A stretch of DNA of 32,614 nucleotides from a virus. The translations under genes and the position numbers were made by a program. Each line of letters opens with the position of its first letter. Positions within the stretch are counted from its first letter, which is position 1. The stretch is from the IMG/VR virus record IMGVR_UViG_3300037010_004170, positions 1 to 32,614 of that record. One strand, 5' to 3'. Below, piece after piece: positions 16,813 to 32,614 of the stretch. A model generated the notes under the pieces. It did not search any database. It was not told where the DNA came from and worked only from the letters and a program-made list of their open reading frames with translations.

Positions 16813-16973
16813 TTGCCTCCAGCCCTAAACTGGCATTAGGCTGTGCAGCGCCCGGCAATGAGAGAGCCAAAGCTGTGACGGTGGACCGATCACCACCGAC
16901 GAAAAAGAACGGGACAGCCCGACCGGAAGGGCGCCACCCCACCATGGCGACAAATGGTGCCGGATGCTTGATG

Positions 16974-16994
16974 GCCCAGCTTCGGCTGGGCTTT
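16974..16994 (+). terminator. UUCG-loop hairpin upstream of second zinc-ribbon gene
   Basis: GCCCAGC-TTCG-GCTGGGC forms a 7-bp stem followed by TTT. It lies 37 bases before ATG 17031, so it could act as an attenuator or terminator between the two zinc-ribbon genes. Confidence 0.55.
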
Positions 16995-17030
16995 CAGGCT
17001 GTACCGGCACGGAGCCGGATGGAGGCAGCC

Positions 17031-17273
17031 ATGGCAAGGGTTGAGACCCCGGCGTGTCCGGGTTGCGGGATGAAGGCTCAGGTCTTCGTCCCGTTCGAGG
17101 AACTGCGGGCCCTGAGGACGAAGACCATCCCACCGCGAAAGGCTGCGCCTTCCCTGACGCCTGGTGATCTGCGCCAGGTCGTGACCGGGTGGTGCCCGAC
17201 CTGTGTGCAGGCCCGAGAGGTGGCGGACCTCCTGGCTGAGATCCGAAGGATCCCCGCCCTCGTTCTCGTGTAG
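17031..17273 (+). CDS. Small zinc-ribbon protein
   Basis: ATG 17031 (MARVETPACPGCGMK) has GGAGG five bases upstream and gives 80 residues. CPGCG near residue 9 and CPTC near residue 61 form a typical two-knuckle zinc ribbon, separated by a charged helical stretch (FEELRALRTKTIPPRKAAP). Earlier in-frame ATGs would extend into the hairpin region and are less likely. It lies between two copies of the palindromic repeat. No family is recognised; nucleic-acid or protein binding is plausible. Confidence 0.65.
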   Translation: MARVETPACPGCGMKAQVFVPFEELRALRTKTIPPRKAAPSLTPGDLRQVVTGWCPTCVQAREVADLLAEIRRIPALVLV

Positions 17274-17292
17274 TAACCCACCCCATCGGGAC

Positions 17293-17329
17293 TCACCCCT
17301 CCCCCGCTTCGCTTGAGGGGAGGGGATGA
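17293..17329. repeat. Palindromic 37-nt repeat, copy 2
   Basis: Identical to 16436-16472, including the 9-bp CCCCTCCCC/GGGGAGGGG stem and the CGCTTCGCTTGA loop. It lies 20 bases after the zinc-ribbon stop. The position suggests a transcript end or processing site; there is no T-tract. Confidence 0.85.
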
Positions 17330-17424
17330 GTCCAACTCCCTCGCCCATTCAGGGCACGGTCCCGGCCTGCCGTTCCAGGCCGATGCACGTTCATGCTCCA
17401 ACCGGAGCTTTCAAGGAGGCCATC

Positions 17425-17961
17425 ATGGCCATCATCAACGGATTCTTCACACAGCAGGCCGTCGCCGCCCGGAACCGCCAGGAGGGCCAGCAGCACCGCA
17501 TCGCCATGGTCTGCCAGGTCTGGAAGAACTCCCGGAAGGTGTTCACCCCGGAAAACGGGAACCCCTTCGTCACCTTCCGCGCCCGCATCGCGGAGATGGA
17601 CGCGGAGAAGGGCGCGGCCCTGGGCATCACCAAGGGCGAGAACGTCCGCCTGCGGTTCTTCGAGGACACGCCCATCAGCTCCACGGGCGGGCTGGACCCC
17701 TTCGCCAGCAAGCAGTACTACCTGGCCTGCTGGGTCCAGCTGGACAGCGAGAAGTTCCAGGGCAAGGCCTACGAGGTGGTGAACGATGAGACCGGCGAGG
17801 TCATGGAAAAGACCCCGGAACCCGTGACCCAGGGCAGGATCCGCGGCGGCGCGTTCGGCAGCACGGTGGAGGAGGCCCTGGCCAACATGGACCAGCTGGC
17901 CGCCGAGCTGAAGGCCATCCGTCACGCCAAGGCGGAGAAGAAGGAAGAGGTCCCCTTCTGA
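17425..17961 (+). CDS. SSB-tailed early protein, possible OB-fold
   Basis: ATG 17425 (MAIINGFFTQQAV) has GGAGG 7 bases upstream and gives 178 residues. The body has alternating strands (HRIAMVCQVWKNSRKVFTP, FVTFRARIAEMD, YYLACWVQLDSEKFQG) compatible with a beta-barrel. The final residues KKEEVPF resemble the acidic DDIPF tip by which SSB recruits RecO, RecQ, PriA and other partners. The true SSB gene further on ends DDDIPF. The role as an SSB substitute or as a competitor for tail-binding host proteins is inference; the domain family is not recognised. Confidence 0.65.
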   Translation: MAIINGFFTQQAVAARNRQEGQQHRIAMVCQVWKNSRKVFTPENGNPFVTFRARIAEMDAEKGAALGITKGENVRLRFFEDTPISSTGGLDPFASKQYYLACWVQLDSEKFQGKAYEVVNDETGEVMEKTPEPVTQGRIRGGAFGSTVEEALANMDQLAAELKAIRHAKAEKKEEVPF

Positions 17962-17981
17962 GGACTGGAGGGACCACCGGG

Positions 17982-18001
17982 AGGGGGCTTCGGCCCCCTT
18001 T
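17982..18001 (+). terminator. Rho-independent terminator with UUCG loop
   Basis: AGGGGGC-TTCG-GCCCCCT forms a 7-bp stem followed by TT, 20 bases after the stop of the 178-codon gene. It separates that gene from the RadC-like gene. Confidence 0.75.
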
Positions 18002-18107
18002 CGGCGTGTACCGATCACCAAGGGGTGTGATCGGGGGGCCCGACGCCCGCCAGGAATCGTCCTGGCTGGGGGAGCCGCCGGGCCCAAGTCCCCATGAAGG
18101 AGGAACC

Positions 18108-18695
18108 ATGCTCATCCGGGAGACCGTCCGGCTCTACGGAGCGGACAGCGTGAAGACGGAAGACCTGCTTCGAGTCCTCGGCATCCCCGAGCCCTACGGC
18201 ATCGTGGACGTGATGGCTGGCAACACCGCCGGGATGCCGCCGGAAGCTCAGATCAAGGCCGAGGCCCTGGCCCAGCTCATCCGGACGCCCCGCGCCTGGG
18301 AGAAGCCGCAGCGCATCACTAGCCCCCGGGCCGCAGGCGACTACCTGCTGCCCAAGACTCAGGGCTGGACCGAGGAACGCTTCGGCTTGCTGGCCCTGAA
18401 CGCCAAGGGCGACCTGCTGGCGGATCGCATCCTTTCCAGGGGCACGGCCACGGCCACCATGATTAGCCCCCGCGAGTTCTTCCGGGAGGCCCTGCGCCAC
18501 GGCGCCACCACGGCCCTAGCCTTCCACAACCACCCCAGCGGAGATCCAACCCCCAGCGACGAAGACCGGAAGCTCACCCGTCGTCTTCGGACGGCCGGCG
18601 ATTCCCTGGGTGTGCCCCTGTCGGACCACCTCGTTCTCGGCAACAACCGCTACTTCAGCTTTCGGGCCGCCGAGGGCTGGGACCGGGAGTCGTAA
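18108..18695 (+). CDS. radC: RadC/JAB-domain protein
   Basis: ATG 18108 (MLIRETVRLYG) is preceded by AAGGAGGAACC, giving 195 residues. The C-terminal JAB/MPN-like domain has the metal site HNHPSGDPTPSDED (H140, H142, S144, D153) followed by a DHLVLGNNRYFSF ending. The preceding ALNAKGDLLADRILSRGTAT segment is typical RadC. RadC is common in mobile elements and phages; its reaction is not settled, and roles in DNA repair or anti-defence have been proposed. Its stop shares a base with the next start (TAATG). The gene stands just before the recombination block. Confidence 0.85.
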   Translation: MLIRETVRLYGADSVKTEDLLRVLGIPEPYGIVDVMAGNTAGMPPEAQIKAEALAQLIRTPRAWEKPQRITSPRAAGDYLLPKTQGWTEERFGLLALNAKGDLLADRILSRGTATATMISPREFFREALRHGATTALAFHNHPSGDPTPSDEDRKLTRRLRTAGDSLGVPLSDHLVLGNNRYFSFRAAEGWDRES

Positions 18696-18829
18696 TGAAC
18701 GCAGTTGAGGACGCCCTCATCTTCCTCGGCATCGTTTGGGCCTCGCTAGGCCTGGCCGTGATCGTCACCCTCATCGTGAAAGATCCTGCCGTGAAGCAGT
18801 ATTTTCGCCTGACCCGCTGGCGCCGCTGA
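18695..18829 (+). CDS. 44-residue single-pass membrane protein
   Basis: ATG 18695 shares one base with the radC stop. The product MNAVEDALIFLGIVWASLGL continues hydrophobic (AVIVTLIV) and ends with a basic tail (KDPAVKQYFRLTRWRR). A single membrane span of about 20 residues is clear. Coupled translation supports it. The function is unknown; basic C-terminus and small size resemble phage membrane modulators. Confidence 0.6.
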   Translation: MNAVEDALIFLGIVWASLGLAVIVTLIVKDPAVKQYFRLTRWRR

Positions 18830-18850
18830 CCCCTGACGAAGAAGTACGCA

Positions 18851-18887
18851 ACCGGATGCTGGAAAATCTCTGGCATCCGGTATTTTT
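18851..18887 (+). terminator. Strong rho-independent terminator
   Basis: ACCGGATGC pairs with GCATCCGGT across a 13-base loop, followed immediately by ATTTTTT. It closes the radC and membrane-protein unit. Confidence 0.85.
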
Positions 18888-18899
18888 TGTCCGTATGAT
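18870..18899 (+). promoter_or_regulatory. Possible promoter for the recombination operon
   Basis: CTGGCA (18870-18875) and TATGAT (18894-18899) are separated by 18 bases. The -10 is good and the -35 weak. It overlaps the terminator and precedes the 18942 gene, so a new transcript may start here. Confidence 0.35.
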
Positions 18900-18941
18900 T
18901 GCCCTGCCTGGGCGTCATACCCACTTAAAAAGGAGGAACCC

Positions 18942-19322
18942 ATGGGTTCCGAGGAAACCAAAATCAAGCTGACCCGCTGGGTCAGGATCGAATCGGCTGG
19001 CGGGGACTACCTCAAGGGGGCCCGCATCCATGTGATCGCCTCCCTCGTGGTTGACGATGGCATCGAGGAAGAGCTGGCCAGCGGCCACGCCTCCGTCAAC
19101 CTGGGCAAAGAGGTGTCCATCCTGGAGGTCATGGACGCGCAGACGTTCACCACCGAAAGCGAGGTGGGCATGAAGCTCTGGATGAAGGCGGTAGAGAAGC
19201 TCTACGCCGACCTGAAGAAGAAGCAGGACCTGCTCGAGGTGCAGACCCATCTGGCCCTGGCCGAGTTGCCCACGGTTCAGCACGTCAAGGGCGAACGCCC
19301 CAAGATCACGGTCGAGGCATGA
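18942..19322 (+). CDS. Unknown protein opening the recombination operon
   Basis: ATG 18942 follows AAAAAGGAGGAACCC, an excellent ribosome site, giving 126 residues. The N-terminal half is beta-prone (KIKLTRWVRIESAGGDYLKG, then RIHVIASLVVDDG), and the C-terminal half helical (MKLWMKAVEKLYADLKKKQD). No family is recognised. Its end overlaps the start region of the first ERF gene. Being first after a terminator, it may be regulatory or a DNA-metabolism accessory; neither is shown. Confidence 0.65.
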   Translation: MGSEETKIKLTRWVRIESAGGDYLKGARIHVIASLVVDDGIEEELASGHASVNLGKEVSILEVMDAQTFTTESEVGMKLWMKAVEKLYADLKKKQDLLEVQTHLALAELPTVQHVKGERPKITVEA

Positions 19323-19324
19323 CG

Positions 19325-19747
19325 ATGCTCAAACACACCGAAAGCATCGCCGCACTCAGCGAGGCGATCTCCCAGGCCCAGGCCGAAGCGAAGAAAACCA
19401 CGAAGGGTTCTGTGAACCCGGCCTTCAAGTCCAAGTATGCCGACCCGACAGAGGTGTTCAACACGGTTCAGCCAGTCTTCTTGAAGCATGGTATCTCCAT
19501 CACCCAGAACCCACAGATGGACAACGGAGTGGTCACGGTAAGGATACTCCTCTCCCACAAGGGCGGGGAGTGGATCGCCTCGGAATGCTCTGCGCCTGTG
19601 AGCAAGCACGACGTCCAAGGGGTGGGTTCAGCCATCACCTATTGTCGCGACTACGCCCTAGCGGAAGTCATGGATCTCCTGGTCGTCCCGAAGGAGAGCC
19701 GCGGCAAGACAGCCGTGGCCCAGGCCTTCGCGCCGGCGAGGAAATGA
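19325..19747 (+). CDS. Degenerate ERF-family annealase paralogue
   Basis: The 140-residue product begins MLKHTESIAALSEAISQAQA; ATG 19325 has GAGG 7 bases upstream, better than ATG 19319. Over residues 1-113 about 91 positions are identical to the full ERF protein encoded at 20909-21559, including GSVNPAFKSKYAD and GVGSAITYC. After this it diverges: the second arginine of CRRYALA is aspartate here and the ERF acidic motif (QEDDDGN) is absent. The reading ends at RGKTAVAQAFAPARK. It may be a decayed copy, or a modulator that mixes into ERF rings; neither is proven. It overlaps the next gene. Confidence 0.75.
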   Translation: MLKHTESIAALSEAISQAQAEAKKTTKGSVNPAFKSKYADPTEVFNTVQPVFLKHGISITQNPQMDNGVVTVRILLSHKGGEWIASECSAPVSKHDVQGVGSAITYCRDYALAEVMDLLVVPKESRGKTAVAQAFAPARK

Positions 19748-19890
19748 TGCCGCCCTACCTCGTCATGACCACGATTGCCGTGGTGTTTTTCCTTGCTGGA
19801 ACCCTCAAGCGTCGGCCCCTTCTGGGGCTGGCGCTGGGGCTTCTGGCCGCCTCTGCCTTCTACTTGGGCCTCGTCGGCCCCACCCCATGA
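19747..19890 (+). CDS. Small two-span membrane protein between ERF and exonuclease
   Basis: ATG 19747 (or the adjacent ATG 19744) overlaps the ERF-like stop (ATGATG), with GAGG 5 bases upstream. The 47-48 residues are hydrophobic in two segments (YLVMTTIAVVFFLAGTL and LLGLALGLLAASAFYLGLV) separated by KRRP, so a hairpin with its basic loop in the cytoplasm is likely. The stop overlaps the exonuclease upstream ATG (ATGA). The function is unknown. Confidence 0.5.
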   Translation: MPPYLVMTTIAVVFFLAGTLKRRPLLGLALGLLAASAFYLGLVGPTP

Positions 19891-19898
19891 GGAACACC

Positions 19899-20909
19899 AT
19901 GATCCACAGCTTCATCCCCAACAACCGGGAGGCCTGGCTGGCCGTTCGGCGCCAGTACATCACCGCTACGGACGTCGTGGCCATCGAGGGCCTGTCGTCC
20001 TTCGCCAGCGCCCACGAGGTTCTGCTTGACAAGAAGGGCCTCCTGCCCAGAAAGCCGGGCAACCGGGCCATGGCCATCGGCAACCTCCTGGAGCCGCTCA
20101 TCCGGGCGGAGTTCGCCCGGAAATACGACGTGCAGGCCTGGGAGAGCCAGGGCGAACGGATCTACTGCGACGACGCCCGTCACCTGGCGGCTACGCCGGA
20201 TGGGCTCTTCCTTCAGGGCGAAGACCGCCTGATTCTGGAGATCAAGACCTCCATGAACAACTGGCGGGAGATCCCGGCCCGGGTGCTCCTCCAGGTGAAG
20301 CATCAGGCCGTGCTGGGAGAAGCCAGCAAGGGCTTCATCGCTCACCTTCATGTGCCCGAGGAGGCCCAGGAGGAGATCCTGGTCCGGGCCGCCCTGGGCC
20401 AGCCCCTCAGCCTGGAGGGCCTGGGCGCCATCGAGACCTATCCCTTCTCCTTCGCGGTGGAGGACCTCGAAGCTCACGCCCAGCGTTATCACGTCTGGTA
20501 TGAGAACCACATCCTCTTCGGGGCGCCGCTGCCCGAGCAGATGCCCAGCCCCAAGCCGGAGCTCACCCAGAGCGTGAGTGATGACCAACTGGTGAGCGCC
20601 TGGTTCGAAAAGAAGCGCCTGGCCGACGAACACGAGGAGCAGGCCAAGGCCTACAAGGCCCAGAGGAAGGAGATCGAGGACCAACTGGTGGCCCTCTATC
20701 CCGATGCCAAGAAGTTCCTGGGCGGCGGCAACGCCGTGTCCCGGTCGTTCACCGCCGGGGCGATGAAGGTGGACAACGAAGGCCTGTTGAACGCCATCGT
20801 CCTCAAGCATCCCGAACTCAACCCCGAGGTCCGCTCCCTGGAGCCGAACTTCATCACCTATGGGTCCGGCTATTCGCGCTGGATCCCATCCAAGAAAAAG
20901 GAGGCATGA
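19899..20909 (+). CDS. YqaJ-type recombination exonuclease
   Basis: ATG 19899 has GAGG six bases upstream, giving 336 residues; ATG 19887 is an in-frame alternative. The PD-(D/E)XK nuclease fold shows E65 in GNLLEP, D101 in ATPDG, and E114/K116 in LEIKTS, the expected metal-site residues. LLQVKHQAVLGE follows as usual for YqaJ. The enzyme resects DNA ends 5' to 3' so that a partner annealase can load, here the adjacent ERF protein. C-terminal residues are helical and charged. It ends within the start of ERF. Confidence 0.88.
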   Translation: MIHSFIPNNREAWLAVRRQYITATDVVAIEGLSSFASAHEVLLDKKGLLPRKPGNRAMAIGNLLEPLIRAEFARKYDVQAWESQGERIYCDDARHLAATPDGLFLQGEDRLILEIKTSMNNWREIPARVLLQVKHQAVLGEASKGFIAHLHVPEEAQEEILVRAALGQPLSLEGLGAIETYPFSFAVEDLEAHAQRYHVWYENHILFGAPLPEQMPSPKPELTQSVSDDQLVSAWFEKKRLADEHEEQAKAYKAQRKEIEDQLVALYPDAKKFLGGGNAVSRSFTAGAMKVDNEGLLNAIVLKHPELNPEVRSLEPNFITYGSGYSRWIPSKKKEA

Positions 20910-21559
20910 TGCTCCAGCACACCGAAAGCATCGCCGCACTCAGCGAGGCCATCGCGCTCGCCCAGGCCGAAGTGGAGAACGCCACGAAGGGCTCGGTGAA
21001 CCCGGCCTTCAAGTCCAAGTACGCCGATCTGGCAGAAGTGCTCAACACGGTTCGGCCGGTCTTCTCGAAGCACGGCATCGCCATCACCCAGCACCCGCAG
21101 CTGGACAACGGGGTGGTCACGGTGACGACACTTCTCTCCCACAAGAGCGGAGAGTGGATGGCCTCCGACTGCTCCGCGCCCGTGAGCAAGCATGACGCCC
21201 AGGGAGTAGGCTCGGCCATCACCTACTGCCGCCGCTACGCCCTGGCCGCCCTGACGGGCGTTGCCCAGGAGGACGACGATGGCAACAGCGCCGTGGGCAA
21301 TGCCGCGAAGGGCGGATCCGGGCAGCAGGTAAGGCCCGCGATTCCTCTGCCTCCGCCGTCGGCCCTGGCTGCCGCCAAGGAACGCTACAAGGAAGCCAAG
21401 GAGAAGGCCTTCGCCAAACTCCTGACGACCATGGACGAGCCCACGGCCCGGGAGCACCTCGGCAACATCGAGAGCGCCACGGCCGAGCAGGAGAAGGATC
21501 CCGCCAAGCGCGCGGAACTCCTCATCGCGGCCATGATGGCCATCGTGAACCGGGCCTAG
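20909..21559 (+). CDS. ERF-family single-strand annealing protein
   Basis: ATG 20909 has AAGGAGG four bases upstream; ATG 20906 overlaps the exonuclease stop but is too close to the site. The 216-residue product contains KGSVNPAFKSKYADLAEVLN, then GVGSAITYCRRYALAALTG and QEDDDGN, the ERF superfamily hallmark. Its C-terminus is a charged helical region (KERYKEAKEKAFAKL). ERF proteins form rings on single strands and anneal complements. The upstream exonuclease would supply the strands. Confidence 0.9.
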   Translation: MLQHTESIAALSEAIALAQAEVENATKGSVNPAFKSKYADLAEVLNTVRPVFSKHGIAITQHPQLDNGVVTVTTLLSHKSGEWMASDCSAPVSKHDAQGVGSAITYCRRYALAALTGVAQEDDDGNSAVGNAAKGGSGQQVRPAIPLPPPSALAAAKERYKEAKEKAFAKLLTTMDEPTAREHLGNIESATAEQEKDPAKRAELLIAAMMAIVNRA

Positions 21560-21560
21560 C

Positions 21561-21998
21561 ATGAAGGATTGGCCCAGCCTGAACCAGGTCACGCTCATCG
21601 GCAAAGTGGCGCGATGCCAACGGATTCAATGGTCCGACGGCAGCGCCACGGCCTGGTTCAGGCTGGTCACGCGCAAGGTGGTGGCTACCCCCAAGGGTTT
21701 CCAGCCGGGATACGACTTCCATGAAGTCGAGGTGAGCCCTGCCGACCGCTTCTTCTCGAAAGCATGGGAAGGGGCGGTCGTCATGGTTCGTGGCGAGTAC
21801 GAGAGCCATGCCTGGACCCCGCGGGGGGCCACCACGTCTTTCGACCGGCACACCCTGGCGGCCCGTGCCTTCCAGCTGATCTTGCCTTCCGACAAGCCGC
21901 AGGTTCCAATCCCAACCCTCTTCCGGGCGCATCGCCAGGAGATCGAACCAACCACACGAGGACATTCCCATGAGCGAACCGAATCCCCCGAGGGATAA
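21561..21998 (+). CDS. SSB-like OB-fold protein
   Basis: ATG 21561 starts 1 base after the ERF stop, giving 145 residues. Residues 1-110 have an SSB-like pattern: LNQVTLIGKVARCQRIQWSD, then ATAWFRLVTRK, DFHEVEV and VVMVRGEYESHAW. These correspond to the strands of an OB-fold. There is no DDIPF-like tail; it ends with a polar stretch (TTRGHSHERTESPEG) where the next gene overlaps. It likely binds single-stranded DNA during annealing, as a second, tailless paralogue of the SSB at 22596. Confidence 0.65.
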   Translation: MKDWPSLNQVTLIGKVARCQRIQWSDGSATAWFRLVTRKVVATPKGFQPGYDFHEVEVSPADRFFSKAWEGAVVMVRGEYESHAWTPRGATTSFDRHTLAARAFQLILPSDKPQVPIPTLFRAHRQEIEPTTRGHSHERTESPEG

Positions 21999-22281
21999 AA
22001 ACTTCGGAATGGTGAGAGATGCGAAGGGCGTCTGCCCGGTCTGCAACCGGATCTTCTTGACCTTCCGCAGGCCCGAAGATCCGGAGCATGTGATCCAGCC
22101 AACCAACCGCCCGCGAACCACCTGTGGGCGCATAGAGTGCATGGACGCAGAAACTGCACGCTTCCTGAGACCCGAAATGGAACGCATCTGGGCCCGAATT
22201 GATGAAGCTCAGAGGCGAGAGCGCCAGAAAGCGGAAGCGAAGCAGCAGAAACAGCTCCGGAAACTCGGAGAACTTCTATGA
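21970..22281 (+). CDS. Small zinc-knuckle protein
   Basis: The 103-residue product overlaps the OB-fold gene by 29 bases. GVCPVCNRIFLTF and TTCGRIECMDAET give CPVC and C-x4-C pairs for one zinc site, and a basic coiled helix (RIDEAQRRERQKAEAKQQKQ) closes the protein. GAGG lies upstream of ATG 21970. No family is recognised; it could bind nucleic acid or act as an adaptor in the recombination module. Confidence 0.65.
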   Translation: MSEPNPPRDKNFGMVRDAKGVCPVCNRIFLTFRRPEDPEHVIQPTNRPRTTCGRIECMDAETARFLRPEMERIWARIDEAQRRERQKAEAKQQKQLRKLGELL

Positions 22282-22556
22282 GCACGAAGCATTTCAAGAA
22301 AATCAGGCTCTGGATCGAGGACCAGGATCGCCCGGTTATCGCCACCTACCCAGCGGAGGAATCCCCAATCCAGCCCCTCGAGACGACCCCGGACTTCGTG
22401 CGGATCCGCAACGTCCGCGGGGGGGACTGGATCCTCCCTAAGGTGAAGATCTTGAAGGCCCGGATCGAGGAACTGAACGAGGACGACCGGGAGGCCCTGG
22501 ATCGCGCCCTGGAAGTCGTGTCTCTTCGGGGGACGGGAACCACCGTCACCCTTTAA
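22278..22556 (+). CDS. Unknown small protein before SSB
   Basis: The 92-residue product overlaps the zinc-knuckle gene by four bases (ATGA). It has a beta N-terminal half (FKKIRLWIEDQDRPVIATY) and a charged helix (VKILKARIEELNEDDREALD). No family is recognised. A short hairpin follows its stop. Coupling to both neighbours supports expression. Confidence 0.6.
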   Translation: MSTKHFKKIRLWIEDQDRPVIATYPAEESPIQPLETTPDFVRIRNVRGGDWILPKVKILKARIEELNEDDREALDRALEVVSLRGTGTTVTL

Positions 22557-22560
22557 CCCC

Positions 22561-22578
22561 CCCCTCCAGGCGGAGGGG
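22561..22578 (+). terminator. Hairpin between two genes, no T-tract
   Basis: CCCCTCC-AGGC-GGAGGGG forms a 7-bp stem, four bases after the stop. No T-tract follows and the SSB ribosome site begins a few bases further on. It may attenuate or stabilise rather than end transcription. Confidence 0.4.
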
Positions 22579-22595
22579 CAACCAGGGAGGCCATC

Positions 22596-23039
22596 ATGGC
22601 CGGCAGTTTGAACAAGGTCCTTCTCATTGGCAACCTCGGGCGAATACCCGAAGTAAAGTCAACACCCAGCGGGCAGACCGTGTGCCGCTTTTCCGTAGCC
22701 ACCACGGAGAGCTGGAAGGATCAGAAAGGCGAGAAGCAGACCAAGACCGAATGGCACAACGTCGTGGTCTGGGGCAAGCAGGCCGAGGTGGCCGGGAATT
22801 ACCTCCACAAGGGCAGCCTCGTTCACGTCGAAGGTCGCATCCAGTACCGCGAATACACCGACAAGGCTGGCGTGAAGAAGACCGCCTGCGACATTCGATG
22901 CGACAACTTCGTGATGCTGGACCGGAAGCCCGAAGGCGAGGGCGCCCAGCGCCAGTACGGCCACCCTGCCGACGACCAGGACGGCATGCTCCCCGCGGCC
23001 AGCACTAGTTCCTTCCTCGACGACGACATCCCGTTCTGA
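22596..23039 (+). CDS. ssb: Single-stranded DNA-binding protein
   Basis: ATG 22596 has GGGAGG at a good distance, giving 147 residues. LNKVLLIGNLGRIPEVKSTP, EWHNVVVWGKQAEVA and VHVEGRIQYREYTDKAGVKK are canonical SSB OB-fold motifs. A low-complexity linker leads to the C-terminal DDDIPF tip, which binds host repair proteins. It protects single strands during replication and supports the adjacent ERF/exonuclease pair. Confidence 0.95.
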   Translation: MAGSLNKVLLIGNLGRIPEVKSTPSGQTVCRFSVATTESWKDQKGEKQTKTEWHNVVVWGKQAEVAGNYLHKGSLVHVEGRIQYREYTDKAGVKKTACDIRCDNFVMLDRKPEGEGAQRQYGHPADDQDGMLPAASTSSFLDDDIPF

Positions 23040-23050
23040 GGGAGGCCAGC

Positions 23051-23134
23051 ATGCAAGAGCGTCGCAGGAAACACCTCCTTCCCCGGATCTTCTACATCGA
23101 AGTCCGGGCCCTCTGGGAATGGCTCTGGAGGTAA
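23051..23134 (+). CDS. 27-residue peptide gene
   Basis: ATG 23051 lies 11 bases after the ssb stop with GGAGG five bases upstream, then MQERRRKHLLPRIFYIEVRA and LWEWLWR. It is basic at its N-terminus and Trp-rich and amphipathic at the C-terminus, compatible with membrane or protein binding. A terminator follows 21 bases later. The ribosome site and position support translation; the function is unknown. Confidence 0.45.
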   Translation: MQERRRKHLLPRIFYIEVRALWEWLWR

Positions 23135-23155
23135 GGGCTGAACACCGTGAATCAT

Positions 23156-23179
23156 GGGCCCCTTCGGGGGCCCGTTTTT
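23156..23179 (+). terminator. Rho-independent terminator with UUCG loop
   Basis: GGGCCCC-TTCG-GGGGCCC forms a perfect 7-bp stem followed by GTTTTT. It ends the recombination unit. Confidence 0.9.
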
Positions 23180-23190
23180 AAGGAGAACGC

Positions 23191-23463
23191 ATGAAGCGCA
23201 TCGTCCGCATTGCCGAAGAGCAAGACCTGACGGATTTCGCCAAACGGGCCGCCCTGGCCTTTCAGGACAATCCCGCGCAGTATTCCTATTCCGAAGCGGT
23301 AGATCGCCCTGGTGAGGGCACCGACCTGCATGCAGAGGACCTCCTGGCCCTGCGCTGGAACAGCATGAGCGTCCTGGTCTGCCGGTTGTCCGATTTCGAG
23401 CCGAGACTCTATCCGGTGCACCAGTTCATCAAGGGCGCCCTTCCCAAAGCGGAGAACGAATGA
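23191..23463 (+). CDS. Unknown early protein (90 residues)
   Basis: ATG 23191 has AAGGAG 7 bases upstream and is the first gene after the terminator. The product begins MKRIVRIAEEQDLTDFAKRA and has LVCRLSDFEPRLYPVHQFIK near the end. Its mixed alpha/beta character matches no recognised family. It overlaps the next gene by 4 bases (ATGA). Confidence 0.6.
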   Translation: MKRIVRIAEEQDLTDFAKRAALAFQDNPAQYSYSEAVDRPGEGTDLHAEDLLALRWNSMSVLVCRLSDFEPRLYPVHQFIKGALPKAENE

Positions 23464-23885
23464 GCGAGTTGGCGATCCACACCGAAGATGGAAAGGCCCT
23501 CATCGAGGCCTATCGCAAGACCCACGACGATCCCGAAGAAGACTTCGAGACAACCCTGGGCGACTATCTGGCGGACCTCATGCACGGAGCCGACGCCCTG
23601 GGCGTGGACTTCGAGGAAGCCTTGCGCCGAGGCTATGCCCACCATGCCGAAGAGAAGAAAGAACAGCCCGAGGCCACCCCTGATCCCCACATGGACCAAG
23701 GCGTCCGACTCCGCCGTCTCGCGCCTGGAACCCTTAATGTTCCCAAAGGAGTCGAGGGTACCGTCAAGGCGATGGGTCTTGGCCCCGAGGCTGACTTCAT
23801 GGTGGATTGGGACAACGGATTCACGGGGGACACCTACGAGTGGTCGGACGTAGACGTGCTTATCGAAGTGGTGGAGGCGCCATGA
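23460..23885 (+). CDS. DUF4314-like protein
   Basis: The 141-residue product has a helical N-terminal half (GKALIEAYRKTHDDPEEDFE) and a C-terminal beta half. The C-terminal part (VRLRRLAPGTLNVPKGVEG, TVKAM, FMVDWDNG) resembles the DUF4314 pattern with P-x-G-x-x-G-T-V followed by WDNG, a small beta-barrel common in phages and mobile elements. The exact role is unknown. The gene overlaps both neighbours by ATGA. Confidence 0.55.
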   Translation: MSELAIHTEDGKALIEAYRKTHDDPEEDFETTLGDYLADLMHGADALGVDFEEALRRGYAHHAEEKKEQPEATPDPHMDQGVRLRRLAPGTLNVPKGVEGTVKAMGLGPEADFMVDWDNGFTGDTYEWSDVDVLIEVVEAP

Positions 23886-24346
23886 CCACGATTGAGCCCC
23901 CAGAGGAAGAGGTCTGTGGCCTCGAATGTGAGGATGAGCCAGAGCCAGAACCTTTCGTGCCCATCGCCTGGAAGGCCGGAGAGAAGCCTGTCACGACCTG
24001 CGGGAAGAACGTGCCCGAGAAGCTGCTGCGCCACCTGGCCAGGCTGAATCTTCCCGTGGGGGTCCACACCCTGCGGGGCGACCTGGTGGAGCGGGAGAAG
24101 CTCCCCTCGCCCTGGATGTGCGCGGTCGATCAGCGGGGATACCCCGGCCTCATGGTGGAGGTTGACGAGAGCGCCATCCACATCTACGAGTCCCATGTTG
24201 CCGGCGAGGCAGGCCGCCACACGGGCGGCGCCATGGCCAGCTGCATGTCCTCGGATGAAATCACGAAACACCTCGCCTGGATTCTCGAAGCCCACGACCG
24301 CAAGGTCATGGCCAGCTTCGCCCTTTTCCCTGAAGAGTTCAACTAA
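23882..24346 (+). CDS. Unknown early protein (154 residues)
   Basis: ATG 23882 overlaps the preceding stop (ATGA); an earlier in-frame start would sit inside the previous gene. The N-terminus is acidic (EPPEEEVCGLECEDEPEPEP), followed by a CGKNVPEKLLRHLARL segment and a C-terminal helix (ITKHLAWILEAHDRKVM). No conserved motif was recognised. Being in the same operon as the DUF932-like gene suggests an accessory early role. Confidence 0.6.
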   Translation: MTTIEPPEEEVCGLECEDEPEPEPFVPIAWKAGEKPVTTCGKNVPEKLLRHLARLNLPVGVHTLRGDLVEREKLPSPWMCAVDQRGYPGLMVEVDESAIHIYESHVAGEAGRHTGGAMASCMSSDEITKHLAWILEAHDRKVMASFALFPEEFN

Positions 24347-26271: not shown

Positions 26272-26483
26272 CCTGGCATTGGGATGAGGGCTGGGAGAAG
26301 GCGCATGCTCGGGTGATGGGTGAGGACGGGGCCCTCTGTGGATTCATCCCTGAACGACCACCCATGATGCGCCCCCCGTTGATGGAGGCACGTTGCCGCG
26401 CCTGCCTGGAGAGGCTGGGAAACGCCGTATCGGTGTTCCCCAACCTCTACCGGCCGACCAGCCTGGGCGCGACCCAGGACTAG
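26226..26483 (+). CDS. Small Cys-containing protein, last plus-strand gene before helicase
   Basis: ATG 26226 has GGAGG 4 bases upstream (85 residues). The product contains VTWHWDEGWEKAHARVM and ends with RCRACLERLGNAV, a CxxC-like pair. No family is recognised. Its stop codon overlaps the stop of the opposing helicase gene, so the two transcripts converge with no space for a terminator. Confidence 0.6.
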   Translation: MASAIGPRGVQPARVTWHWDEGWEKAHARVMGEDGALCGFIPERPPMMRPPLMEARCRACLERLGNAVSVFPNLYRPTSLGATQD

Positions 26484-27850
26484 GCTCTTCGCGTGAGCTG
26501 AGGGGCCGCTGCGGTCGTCCGGTCCATTTCCCGGTAGCGGAACGAGGGACCGTCAAAGTGCAGATTGATGCTGCCGAGGCGGCCATCCCGCTGCTTGGCC
26601 ACGATGAGCTCGGCGGCTGAATCCTCGGCCTCGCCTTCCCGCAGCGCGACCATGCGCCGATGAATGAAGGCCACCAGGTCGGCATCCTGTTCGATGGTAC
26701 CGGAATCCCGCAGGTCGGACAGCTGGGGGCGGCCATTCTGGCGATGCTCCACCTCCCGGTTCATCTGGGAGAGCAGGAGAACCGGGAGGCCCAGGTCCTT
26801 CGCTAGCAGCTTCAGGCCACGGGTGATTTCTCCGATCCGGACCGCCTCGTTCTGGACCTTACCCCGCTCCGGGGAGGACAGCAGTTGCAGGTAGTCCACG
26901 GCCACGAAGTCCAGGCGCCCCTCCTTGGCGATGATCCGTTCCGCCTGGGCACGGATCTCCCGTACCGTGATGGTGGCTCGATCCGCGATGAAGATAGGCA
27001 GATCCGCCACCTCGGCCTTGGCCTGGGCAATCCGATCTACTACGTCCTGGTCGTACCCGTTGGCGATGGCTTCCTTCAGGTTGATCTGGCCATGCGTTGA
27101 GACCAGTCGGCCAAGAACCTCCTCCTTCGACATTTCCAGGATGAAGGCGGCGCAACGGTTCCCCCGCTGCGCCATGTATAGCAGCCAATTCAGGAGGAGG
27201 GCGGTCTTGCCAATGCCGGGCCGGGCCGCCAGGACAATGAGGTTCCCAGGTTTGAAGCCCTGGGTCATCCGGTCAAAACGACTGAACCCCGTCATCAACC
27301 CCTTGGGGGTCCGGCCATCCATCCGTGCCACCAGGTCCGCCATCCAGTCGTCTGCGAACTCGTAGACCTCCTGGAGGTTCCCCTTGCTCCGTGTCTGGAC
27401 GAGGGCGGTAAGCCCCCGGGAGGCCTCTTCCACGAGGGCGGCCGGGGCCAGGTCCTCCGCTGCCGCACGGCGCGCCAGCTCCATGCCCAGGTGGACAAGC
27501 CGACGGAAGCTGGCCTTCTCCCGAAGATGCTCCCCCAGCCGATGTGGCCGTCCCACGTCCTCCCCGGCCAGCAGCTCCACCAGGCCGGGGTACCCCCCCA
27601 CCAGATCCATCTTGCCCTGGTTCTCCAGGGCGATCTTCAGGGTGAGGGAGTTGACCTCCTCCCCTCGCCCCAGGAGGTGTAGCAGGGCCTCAAAGACGGC
27701 CCGGTGGGCCGGATGGACGAAGACCTCGGGCGTCATGTCCAGGCAGCACTCCGCGGCCAGGGCCTCGGCGCCCGGGGCGCAGCAGGTCGCCAGGAAGGAT
27801 CGCTCGGCGTCCAGATCCTCTGGTAAGCGTTCAGGCAGCCACTCAGCCAT
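26480..27850 (-). CDS. dnaB: DnaB-type replicative helicase
   Basis: ATG 27850 has GGAGG 6 bases upstream (456 residues). The N-terminal domain carries MTPEVFVHPAHRAVFEALLH, typical of DnaB. The RecA-like domain has Walker A ARPGIGKTA (209-217), a FVAVDYLQLL Walker B, then LLLSQMNREVEHR and SDLRDSGTIEQDADLVAFIH, all conserved DnaB motifs. It unwinds the fork and would be loaded by the upstream protein, whose gene it overlaps by 8 bases. Use of a phage helicase suggests an autonomous replication system. Confidence 0.95.
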   Translation of the reverse strand: MAEWLPERLPEDLDAERSFLATCCAPGAEALAAECCLDMTPEVFVHPAHRAVFEALLHLLGRGEEVNSLTLKIALENQGKMDLVGGYPGLVELLAGEDVGRPHRLGEHLREKASFRRLVHLGMELARRAAAEDLAPAALVEEASRGLTALVQTRSKGNLQEVYEFADDWMADLVARMDGRTPKGLMTGFSRFDRMTQGFKPGNLIVLAARPGIGKTALLLNWLLYMAQRGNRCAAFILEMSKEEVLGRLVSTHGQINLKEAIANGYDQDVVDRIAQAKAEVADLPIFIADRATITVREIRAQAERIIAKEGRLDFVAVDYLQLLSSPERGKVQNEAVRIGEITRGLKLLAKDLGLPVLLLSQMNREVEHRQNGRPQLSDLRDSGTIEQDADLVAFIHRRMVALREGEAEDSAAELIVAKQRDGRLGSINLHFDGPSFRYREMDRTTAAAPQLTRRA

Positions 27851-28817
27851 GGAGGGCCTCCGCCAGCAGCGCGCCCGTTTCCTCGGCCACAGCTGAATTG
27901 ACCCGTTCCCGGGCGGCCGGAACGTACTCCTCCCACATCTTGAGCTCAGCACTCCAGAACTTCGGCAGGTTCACGATGCCGGAGGTGATGTTCTGCTCCT
28001 GATCGCGTTCCTGTTGATCCAGATACACGAAGAGACAGGTCTTCAGGATGCGGGGGGTCAGCTCCGGGTGATCCAGAAGGATCTCCTTCCAGGCCCTTCG
28101 TGTTTGCTCAGGAGTGCCTGGCAGGCAGCGTGACGACGAGCCATCCCGGTGCCGCCGCAGGGCGTTGCTCGGATAGCCCTTCCGGGCGGCTTGCATCTGC
28201 GCCTCGTGGTCATGGGTCCAGTCGAACTCCGCGATGGACAGCTCCCGGGCCTGGGCTGGCGTGATGACCCGCGACTTCCGTGGTTTCTTCACCCGGTCCC
28301 CAGCAGCAGCCAGAACCCCCTCGCCAGAGGGGGGGCTGAAAGAAGCTTTTTCTTTTGTACTAGAAGTACTTACTCCGTACGCGCGAGGGCGCGCGTCACG
28401 CGCGGGTTCCAGATCATGCGCGAGGGGCTCGGAAACCTGGACGAAACCTGGAGCTAACCTGGATGGAACCTGGCCGGTTTCGTCTAGGTTCTTTCCAGGT
28501 TTCGCGGGACGACCACCCCGGGCTCCATTTGCCCGGCGAGCATCATCGGCTTTTTCCTGCTGGAAGAGGAGCGCCTCGAGGGTGGAATCGGTGAGGCTCT
28601 CCCCGATGGCTGTGAAGAAGCCTTGCACCTGGTCCCACCAGCGAACCATGTCCGAGGCCTGGGCCTGGGCCAGCGCCGCCGCGGCGCGAGGATCGTTCGG
28701 CAGGTAGCCGTGGCGCAGGTAGCCCGCTCGGCAGCGAAGCACCAGGGCTTGAACCGGAAGGGGGGCCGCCGCCAGGTCGGGTTCCCCCAGGAAGGCGTAG
28801 AGATTTTTCAGATTCAT
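27843..28817 (-). CDS. Replication initiator or helicase loader (DUF1376-like)
   Basis: ATG 28817 (MNLKNLYAFLGEPDLAAAPL, 324 residues) was chosen by the domain start; a longer frame to 28916 lacks support. Residues 1-95 (YLRHGYLPNDPRAAAALAQA, then ARRANGARGG) resemble the DUF1376/YdaU domain in phage replication proteins. A low-complexity linker (100-180) overlaps the origin-like DNA. The C-terminal part has KEILLDHPELTPRILKTCLF and EQNITSGIVNLPKFW. Just upstream of a DnaB gene it fits an initiator/loader. The initiator role is inferred from the iterons within the gene. Confidence 0.65.
   Translation of the reverse strand: MNLKNLYAFLGEPDLAAAPLPVQALVLRCRAGYLRHGYLPNDPRAAAALAQAQASDMVRWWDQVQGFFTAIGESLTDSTLEALLFQQEKADDARRANGARGGRPAKPGKNLDETGQVPSRLAPGFVQVSEPLAHDLEPARDARPRAYGVSTSSTKEKASFSPPSGEGVLAAAGDRVKKPRKSRVITPAQARELSIAEFDWTHDHEAQMQAARKGYPSNALRRHRDGSSSRCLPGTPEQTRRAWKEILLDHPELTPRILKTCLFVYLDQQERDQEQNITSGIVNLPKFWSAELKMWEEYVPAARERVNSAVAEETGALLAEALHG
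28340..28504. other. Candidate replication origin inside the initiator gene
   Basis: An AT-rich tract (28340-28373, about 30 percent GC) with the palindrome GTACT-AGA-AGTAC lies next to four AACCTGG repeats starting at 28434, 28445, 28456 and 28467, exactly 11 bp apart. Three inverted versions start at 28473 (GCCGGTT), 28484 (CTAGGTT) and 28495 (CCAGGTT), also 11 bp apart. Three pairs are symmetric about 28473, forming a 63-bp imperfect dyad (28442-28504). An 11-bp period is not a codon multiple, so protein repetition does not explain it. Iterons plus an AT-rich tract in the initiator gene is the lambda-type layout. Confidence 0.65.
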
Positions 28818-29021: not shown

Positions 29022-29040
29022 CGTGTGGATGAACCATCAC

Positions 29041-29150
29041 ACGCACGTACGCAGAGACGTGCGCGTGTGTGTCTCCGTGGAGAGACGTACACATGGACGT
29101 GCGTACGCACGTACGCACACACACCCATGCGTACATGCGCTCATGTTGAT
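29041..29150. repeat. ACGTRCGCA-type repeat cluster, candidate centromere
   Basis: The motif ACGTACGCA or close variants starts at 29045, 29057, 29085, 29097 and 29109, with palindromic TGCGTACGCA and CATGCGTACATG elements around them and GAGACGT repeated at 29054 and 29082. Located right after the putative ParB-like gene, it looks like a partition site. Simple CA/GT runs could inflate the pattern. Confidence 0.5.
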
Positions 29151-29168
29151 GGCAGCCGGACTGGCCCC

Positions 29169-29609
29169 TTAGTGCCGGTCGCGCAGCCGTTGGAGCATTT
29201 CCTCGGCCTTCTGGGGCCGGAGGGTGGGATCCACGATGAGGCCCAGGGCGATGTTCTGGAGCTCGGCAAAATGAATCCCCATGTCGTCCGCCAACTGCAT
29301 GGCCGCCGACCGAACCACGGGATCATAGAGGCTGTTTCCCGGGAGCCAGCCCCGGGCCCGGAGCGAGGCTCCCTTGGCGCTGCGCCCCTCGGAAAACCGG
29401 AAGGGCTCTGGCAGGGCTGGGGACGCATTTCGGGGCTCCTCGTCTCGAGGGGAGGCCGCCTGGAGGGGCGCGGCCGGCAAAGGAGCTTGCGCCTCCGCGG
29501 GGGCGGGCGCGGGGATTGTCCGCCGCATGGTGGCCGCGAAGTCCAGCTCCCCCTCCCGGACATGGGCCATGAGTCGGGCCCGTTTCTCCTCGAAGGTCTC
29601 CTTAGGCAT
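29169..29609 (-). CDS. ParA partner, possible centromere-binding protein
   Basis: ATG 29609 (MPKETFEEKRARLMAHVREG, 146 residues) overlaps the parA stop by 8 bases. The N-terminal helix and an Ala/Pro linker (PAPAPAEAQAPLPAAPLQA) lead to a C-terminal helical domain (YDPVVRSAAMQLADDMGIHF). No ParB domain is recognised, but plasmid partition partners are often small and divergent. Position after parA and beside the repeat cluster supports the assignment, which is inference. Confidence 0.55.
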   Translation of the reverse strand: MPKETFEEKRARLMAHVREGELDFAATMRRTIPAPAPAEAQAPLPAAPLQAASPRDEEPRNASPALPEPFRFSEGRSAKGASLRARGWLPGNSLYDPVVRSAAMQLADDMGIHFAELQNIALGLIVDPTLRPQKAEEMLQRLRDRH

Positions 29610-30261
29610 GTCGCCGCACCTTCTCCCGGGAGCCGCGGGTGGCCTCCAGGAAGCAAACCAGGTTCCGCATTTCCTCGGCACCTGTTGACTTCGGGGCGAA
29701 GTCCCAGACCGGGACGCCCGCCTCCACCGCCTCGGCGTATTCCTTCCGCTCCCACATGCGGCCGATGTACTCCCCCTTGTCGGAGGATTGAAGTGTGCCC
29801 ACGAAGATTTTGGCGACCTCGGTATTCCGGAAGAAGTTGCAAATGTAGAGCAGGGGGATGGGCTCCTGGCGGGCCGAACTCGCGTCCTTCACCGCGAGGT
29901 TCACGCGACCGATGGCGTAGACATCGTTGGGACCGGGGCGCGTGGGGCACAGCACGGCGTCGCAGGTCAGGAGGGCAACCTGGGTCAGGTAACTGGAGCC
30001 TGGCGGACAATCCAGCACCACGCTGCGGCCGTCCTTGCGGAGCTGAGCCACCAGATCGAAGACCTCCTCCGGGCTGGCGTCGTGCATTCGATGGGTGTCG
30101 AGGCCTGCCCGCAGGCCGAAGCGGGCGCTGTCCCCGTTCTGATCCAGGTCAATGAGGCTGGCGCCCAGGTGCGCCGCCAGGTGGACGGCCACGGTGGACT
30201 TGCCCACGCCGCCCTTGTAGTTGGCAACAGCCGTGACAAAAGGATTCGCTTTGAGCGTCAT
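29602..30261 (-). CDS. parA: ParA-family partition ATPase
   Basis: The 219-residue protein has the deviant Walker A KGGVGKST (16-23), LIDLDQNGD (36-44, Walker A') and VVLDCPPG, a Walker B. The small size (no N-terminal HTH) matches type Ib ParA. It moves DNA by ATP-dependent patterning on the nucleoid. AAGGTGG precedes ATG 30261. In phages, ParA proteins mark prophages kept as plasmids. A different role in DNA positioning cannot be excluded. Confidence 0.9.
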   Translation of the reverse strand: MTLKANPFVTAVANYKGGVGKSTVAVHLAAHLGASLIDLDQNGDSARFGLRAGLDTHRMHDASPEEVFDLVAQLRKDGRSVVLDCPPGSSYLTQVALLTCDAVLCPTRPGPNDVYAIGRVNLAVKDASSARQEPIPLLYICNFFRNTEVAKIFVGTLQSSDKGEYIGRMWERKEYAEAVEAGVPVWDFAPKSTGAEEMRNLVCFLEATRGSREKVRRHA

Positions 30262-30276
30262 GGGGCCACCTTCGCG

Positions 30277-30310
30277 TGTGTTGATGGCTTTATATCACCA
30301 TGTCAACACA
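30277..30310. promoter_or_regulatory. Inverted repeat in the parA promoter region
   Basis: TGTGTTGA (30277-30284) and TCAACACA (30303-30310) form an 8-bp inverted repeat around 18 bases containing TTTATA. On the minus strand the right arm supplies TTGACA. It lies 16 bases before the parA start; an autoregulatory operator is likely. Confidence 0.5.
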
Positions 30311-32548: not shown

Positions 32549-32614
32549 ATGAGAGAGGAAGATGACAACGTCCGACTTGAGCGACAGGTTAGGCGCTTGA
32601 CGGACGATGAATGC
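32549..32614 (+). CDS. Start of a further small gene (runs off window)
   Basis: ATG 32549 has AAAGGAG 5 bases upstream. The 22 visible codons begin MREEDDNVRLERQVRRLTDD, a charged helix. The remainder is beyond the right edge. Confidence 0.6.
   Translation, partial: MREEDDNVRLERQVRRLTDDEC

Follow-up and report, generated by a model that had tools for sequence, protein, structure and literature searches.

A putative type Ib-like partition locus in a phage genome that extends to a tyrosine integrase

ParA and its overlapping partner

A gene for a small ParA-type ATPase, a small ORF overlapping its end and a repeat patch directly after that ORF lie beside phage replication genes in the window studied here (Table 1). 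By the window we mean the whole stretch of DNA that was analysed, which is the entire IMG/VR record IMGVR_UViG_3300037010_004170; this record has 32,614 bases and is classified as linear, so it may be a fragment. A scan of viral contigs with ParA identified one contig encoding an identical protein, IMGVR_UViG_3300035661_000078 (55,442 bp, hereafter G001), and the whole window aligns with its positions 22829-55442 with 2 mismatches (99.99% identity). When ParA, the partner, terminase and portal were compared with viral contigs, close relatives were found in this same phage only.

Table 1. Features of the partition locus, its neighbourhood and the adjoining part of the longer record; positions are those of the window unless G001 is named
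Feature	Position	Strand	Description
dnaB	26480..27952	-	DnaB-type replicative helicase of phage type (Pfam, PHROG)
324-aa ORF between patch and dnaB	27843..28817	-	no Pfam match; from its position possibly a primosome/initiator-type phage protein
Alternating purine-pyrimidine repeat patch, after partner gene	29041..29150	.	candidate centromere
16-bp perfect palindrome inside patch	29097..29112	.	P about 0.03 given the patch's own make-up
Partner ORF	29169..29609	-	146 aa; ATG at 29609, stop at 29169
parA	29602..30261	-	219-aa ParA/ParF-like ATPase (Pfam, PHROG, motifs, alignment)
Short inverted repeat GTGTTGA..TCAACAC, upstream of parA	30278..30309	.	seen by eye; weak candidate for an operator
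Half of attC-like site	32570..32596	.	cassette array and integrase continue beyond the window in G001
Tyrosine integrase	G001 19540-20721		393 aa, open frame; 2.1 kb past the window's right end

Judged by its sequence, ParA is of the small plasmid type Ib, ParF-like kind, and the type Ib-like ParA recognised in a preliminary description of this DNA is borne out. The 219-aa product matches Pfam AAA_31 (E 3.8e-11) and CbiA (E 4.8e-9) as well as PHROG 164 'ParA-like partition protein' (E 3.1e-23), and residues K16, G17, G18, G20 and K21 of its deviant Walker A motif (KGGVGKST) are invariant in an alignment with five plasmid homologues. An N-terminal HTH is a feature of type Ia ParA; it can be ruled out here because the Walker A already starts at residue 16, and a small ParA with a deviant Walker A and no such HTH is what type Ib loci encode. 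Among solved structures the protein matches Soj, MipZ and ParF chains, and among plasmids 990 records were matched, every one at less than 60% identity. ParF/ParG-type pairs are found among the nearest plasmid ParAs whose neighbours are annotated: in the five plasmid neighbourhoods that were read, an annotated ParG stands beside ParA in two (Tolypothrix, Leptospirillum), a small unnamed gene holds the same position in two others, and annotation is missing in one. The inverted repeat earlier placed at the parA promoter is visible by eye, but it is short and falls outside the 25 longest of 77 inverted pairs.

The small partner gene was likewise correctly described as overlapping, its ATG lying across the parA stop with an 8-nt overlap, and a small gene following or overlapping parA is again in keeping with type Ib. 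To place this layout among phages, the alignment of ParA and the five plasmid homologues was used to scan viral contigs, which gave at least 158 relatives among the 600 matched stretches listed; the best 80 were kept, one of them being the phage itself, leaving 79 other loci. In one of these ParA runs to the end of the locus, so that 78 were usable. The overlapping-partner layout is the usual one among these best-matching relatives, because an ORF of 50-220 aa overlaps the ParA stop in 60 of the 78; an ORF starts within 200 bp in a further 15, and none was found in 3.

In sequence the partner is an orphan. No usable match emerged from the phage collection, Pfam, PHROGs or PDB sequences. When the partner and the replication, recombination and structural proteins were compared with the 79 viral ParA loci (from the best 80 of at least 158), no homologue of the partner came to light. 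A profile was built from 48 of the viral partners, excluding those above 145 aa, identical copies and, by hand, L041, L045, L055, L080 and L083. This profile recovers its own left-out members well (44 of 48 above 10 bits), whereas the present partner scores 0.2 to 3.0 bits. Shuffled sequences did as well in 820 of 2000 cases with the trimmed profile, 98 of 2000 with the untrimmed profile and 2450 of 5000 with the ribbon-helix-helix part alone, and a ParG-like ribbon-helix-helix protein was accordingly not recognised, the partner fitting the profile of 48 no better than many shuffles. Single-sequence structural models, all of low confidence, place a basic helix at the N-terminus, a disordered Pro/Ala-rich middle and a three-helix region at the C-terminus. 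Searched with Foldseek, such a model had no match at E <=0.001, and a CopG chain at E 8.2 carries no weight; with models of this low confidence, a ribbon-helix-helix relation may exist at the level of the fold. A ParB_N domain (PF02195) was found in neither of the two records searched (window and G001), while the control matched in 10 of 14 genomes, and the locus thus lacks in these records the ParB with ParB_N domain that marks a canonical ParABS system of type Ia. The partner is an orphan in adaptor position, and an adaptor role is predicted from that position.

The failure of every search to relate the partner to another protein could also mean that the locus is a decaying or non-functional remnant, in which ParA persists only accidentally and the partner ORF does not encode a true adaptor. 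The open frames of both genes, their tight overlap and the intact ATPase motifs make such decay, however, highly improbable.

The repeat patch and the replication neighbourhood

The patch is set apart by its purine/pyrimidine alternation, which reaches 0.80 over 110 bp; the window averages 0.449 (sd 0.052) and elsewhere does not exceed 0.591. It had been reported as a cluster of ACGTRCGCA repeats following the partner gene; the patch is indeed exceptional, but the exact motif occurs only twice in the window (29045 and 29109), a count reached by 3 of 100 shuffles. The looser motif RCGTRCGYR, picked after the patch had been seen, matches the window at 10 places, every one of them within 29040-29117; a count of 10 was not reached in any of 100 shuffles. 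The patch is more aptly seen as a set of alternating words that overlap one another and surround a perfect palindrome of 16 bp. A reading of the patch as a strong hairpin was dropped (z -1.88, equalled by 7 of 200 shuffles).

Centromere repeats upstream of parA are a defining feature of type Ib partition loci. Here the repeats follow the partner instead: the 300 bp beyond the partner contain 4 copies of GTACGCA (P 0.005), and repeat enrichment was absent from the 300 bp before parA (P 0.075). The same flank test was applied to those 53 of the 60 loci with overlapping partners (from the best 80 of at least 158) that had sufficient flank and a usable start, and enrichment at P <=0.02 was seen downstream of the partner in 3 and upstream of parA in 7 of them. 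The patch is real, and its role would be that of a centromere. Of the complete partition locus previously claimed, the ParA, the overlapping ORF and the repeat patch are present; 'complete' goes too far, the partner being a putative DNA binder.

The patch may alternatively be a phage replication origin, with initiator sites for the 324-aa ORF and DnaB, in which case ParA and its partner would serve replication control or genome positioning. Its situation between the partner gene and the replication genes agrees with this, as does the low number of relatives with enrichment after the partner. The position directly after the partner gene is, on the other hand, also that of sopC after sopAB in the F plasmid, as described in PMC9178275, and we find an origin rather unlikely.

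The locus was also said to adjoin replication genes as on plasmids. A DnaB gene is close by, but it is of phage type, and a Rep_3 plasmid initiator, the only initiator family searched individually, was found in neither of the two records (window and G001). An HTH_3 family repressor was likewise found in neither. Elsewhere in the window there are two Erf-like annealing genes (19319-19747 and 20906-21559) sharing 336 bp at about 84.5% identity, which amounts to a duplication, and two SSB-like genes close together (21561-21998 and 22596-23039), one typical (Pfam SSB, E 5.6e-38) and one weak (E 1.3e-4).

The integrase and cassette module beyond the window

Past the right end of the window, G001 holds in order a cassette array, an integrase, MazG, a tRNA-Met, a weak spanin match, an ORF of 3310 aa and a weak M15 peptidase match. 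The integrase is of the tyrosine type (Pfam Phage_integrase, E 6.6e-20; arm-binding domain, E 2.3e-13; PHROG 1, E 4.6e-63). Among its catalytic residues R, HDLRH and Y are kept, and the LGH histidine aligns with Q. The tRNA-Met gene, the sole match in an Rfam search, is complete (G001 excerpt L003, 16630-16703), lies 2.8 kb from the integrase and may mark attP or be a phage tRNA. The 3310-aa ORF (L003, 4906-14838) has no Pfam or PHROG match, and its first 2698 aa had no match in the phage collection.

The array beside the integrase consists of integron attC-like sites between small minus-strand ORFs (excerpt L001 5560-7700, G001 about 20740-22880). Two full sites (L001 6079-6137 and 7339-7398) beat 2998 and 2999 of 3000 shuffles when aligned with aadA-type attC. 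Two more are present in excerpt L094, from a further phage, IMGVR_UViG_3300035182_000244, which has head, portal, terminase and DnaB genes and in which a PF00589 integrase was not found. For each of the four, alignment with the aadA-type plasmid attC outdoes at least 2998 of 3000 shuffles in one direction and not in the other. The attC assignment rests on alignment and not on folding, because DNA folding of the sites gave no low z-score. The cassette ORFs of G001 run against the attC direction, and one of them encodes a pentapeptide-repeat protein (Pfam E 3.5e-39). The integrase next to the sites is of phage type, with its arm-binding domain.

A second, independent record, IMGVR_UViG_3300036715_000784 (25,453 bp, hereafter G053), repeats G001 16938-23924 at 99.943%, integrase included. 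The two thus share a 7-kb module of MazG, integrase and cassettes, and the break falls inside a homologous gene. Past the shared stretch the sequence of G053 is that of a different phage, which encodes a tail protein, RecT and a DnaC-type loader but lacks the window's ParA. Further attC-like half-sites and small ORFs were noted by eye in G053 (excerpt L098 17616-18230), just outside the module. The sharing reflects either a recent module exchange or an assembly join. The link between integrase and ParA rests on G001 and on a 1.1-kb overlap of G053 with the window, while G053 joins the module to a phage without ParA, and G001 may contain an assembly error. Sequence composition is informative in this regard. 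Both far flanks of the integrase in G001 resemble the ParA side (correlations of 0.53 and 0.63) more than G053's own segments (0.28-0.32); the module itself correlates at 0.36 with the ParA side and at 0.12 and 0.30 with G053. Positions 44000-55442 of G001 correlate with G053 at 0.53 and 0.56, which counts against the association. The composition of both integrase flanks ties them to the ParA phage and supports G001 as a single phage; G001 as a chimera of two phages was rejected, the far flank being nearer in composition to the ParA side than to G053's own part.

The preliminary description suggested a phage-plasmid. Its remark that no integrase was found in the window holds to the letter, but this record is a fragment and the integrase of G001 lies just past its end. 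It had also proposed examining the longer genome, and had named an integrase and chromosomal att junctions there as evidence to the contrary; the integrase, one half of this, has been found. The phage-plasmid call is not established, because it rested mainly on a missing integrase that is now located in G001. Phage-plasmids carry partition loci and typically lack integrases, as PMC12977533 describes them, and this phage holds one in its longer record. A true phage-plasmid could still be imagined, with a prophage normally episomal by means of its par locus and an integrase that most genomes lack, that is inactive or that came in recently as a passenger of the cassette module. The integrase module is mobile, perhaps recently so, because two different phages share it at 99.94%, and the Q in place of its relatives' LGH histidine could point to inactivity. 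The open frame of the integrase with R, HDLRH and Y in place speaks against this, as do the phage-type DnaB and the Rep_3 result given above, and we judge a true phage-plasmid unlikely.

With slightly more confidence than doubt, we read the region as part of a temperate phage that has both a type Ib-like partition locus and a tyrosine integrase of its own. The partition half of the earlier description is plausible on sequence grounds. Points against the combined reading are the partner's poor fit to the ribbon-helix-helix profile and its lack of a ParB domain, the downstream placing of the patch, the Q at the LGH histidine and the HTH_3 repressor not found in the two records. ParA-ATP would coat the nucleoid, the putative DNA-binding partner would bind the repeat patch just after its own gene, and its basic N-terminal helix would stimulate the ParA ATPase. 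Copies of the phage genome could thereby be moved apart and not be lost while extrachromosomal, be it before integration, after excision or as an occasional episome. We infer DNA binding by the partner, a centromere in the patch, a working locus and a working integrase. The phage may be episomal part of the time; in a pattern scan of genome contigs no related integrase or ParA was found, and no host att junction either. Going further, one may picture a dual-lifestyle phage whose partner represents a centromere-binding protein of a new class, made of helices only, with a palindromic centromere of alternating purines and pyrimidines after its own gene as its target. A mobile integrase-cassette module beside it, swapped among unrelated phages, would let a single recombination event switch between integration and episomal life. 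We put this forward as a decidedly doubtful proposal.

Relation to known systems

When a contig is a fragment, the lack of an integrase in it is poor evidence for a phage-plasmid. If binding of the patch is true, the orphan partner adds an unrelated adaptor to type Ib-like partition. The near-identical integrase and cassette module in two phages suggests that phages exchange the integration function along with integron-type cassettes.

The locus resembles type Ib loci such as ParF/ParG of TP228 and relatives in its small ParA without an N-terminal HTH and in its small overlapping partner ORF. It differs from them in a partner that falls outside the ribbon-helix-helix profile and in repeats that are placed after the partner, with none enriched before parA.

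ParA and an integrase in one phage are already known together and, among the relatives examined, not rare. A PF00589 integrase was found in 16 of the 50 related viral ParA records searched out of the 79 loci (from the best 80 of at least 158), a lower bound since many records are fragments, and Bellas et al. 2015 (PMC4490671) describe phage CY1_63_1964 as having an integrase and ParAB. That phage is similar to ours in this combination; it has a ParB and CRISPR-Cas, whereas in the present phage the partner is an orphan and the cassettes are of integron type. In mycobacteriophages of cluster A the integration cassette gives way to parABS, and the likeness to those with parABS (RedRock, Miko; PMC7157519) is that of a temperate phage with ParA and repeat sites near the replication region. 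Unlike RedRock and Miko, the phage studied here has an integrase, and a ParB_N domain was not found in its two records.

CALINs are clusters of at least two neighbouring attC sites that lack an integron integrase, and the present array is a candidate for one. Phage-borne CALINs have already been published (Qi et al. 2023, PMC9892861). They share with the present array attC sites and small ORFs in a phage, with an integron integrase not found beside them. The present array is distinguished from those CALINs by its place beside a phage integrase, by ORFs running against the attC direction and by its presence in two different phages.
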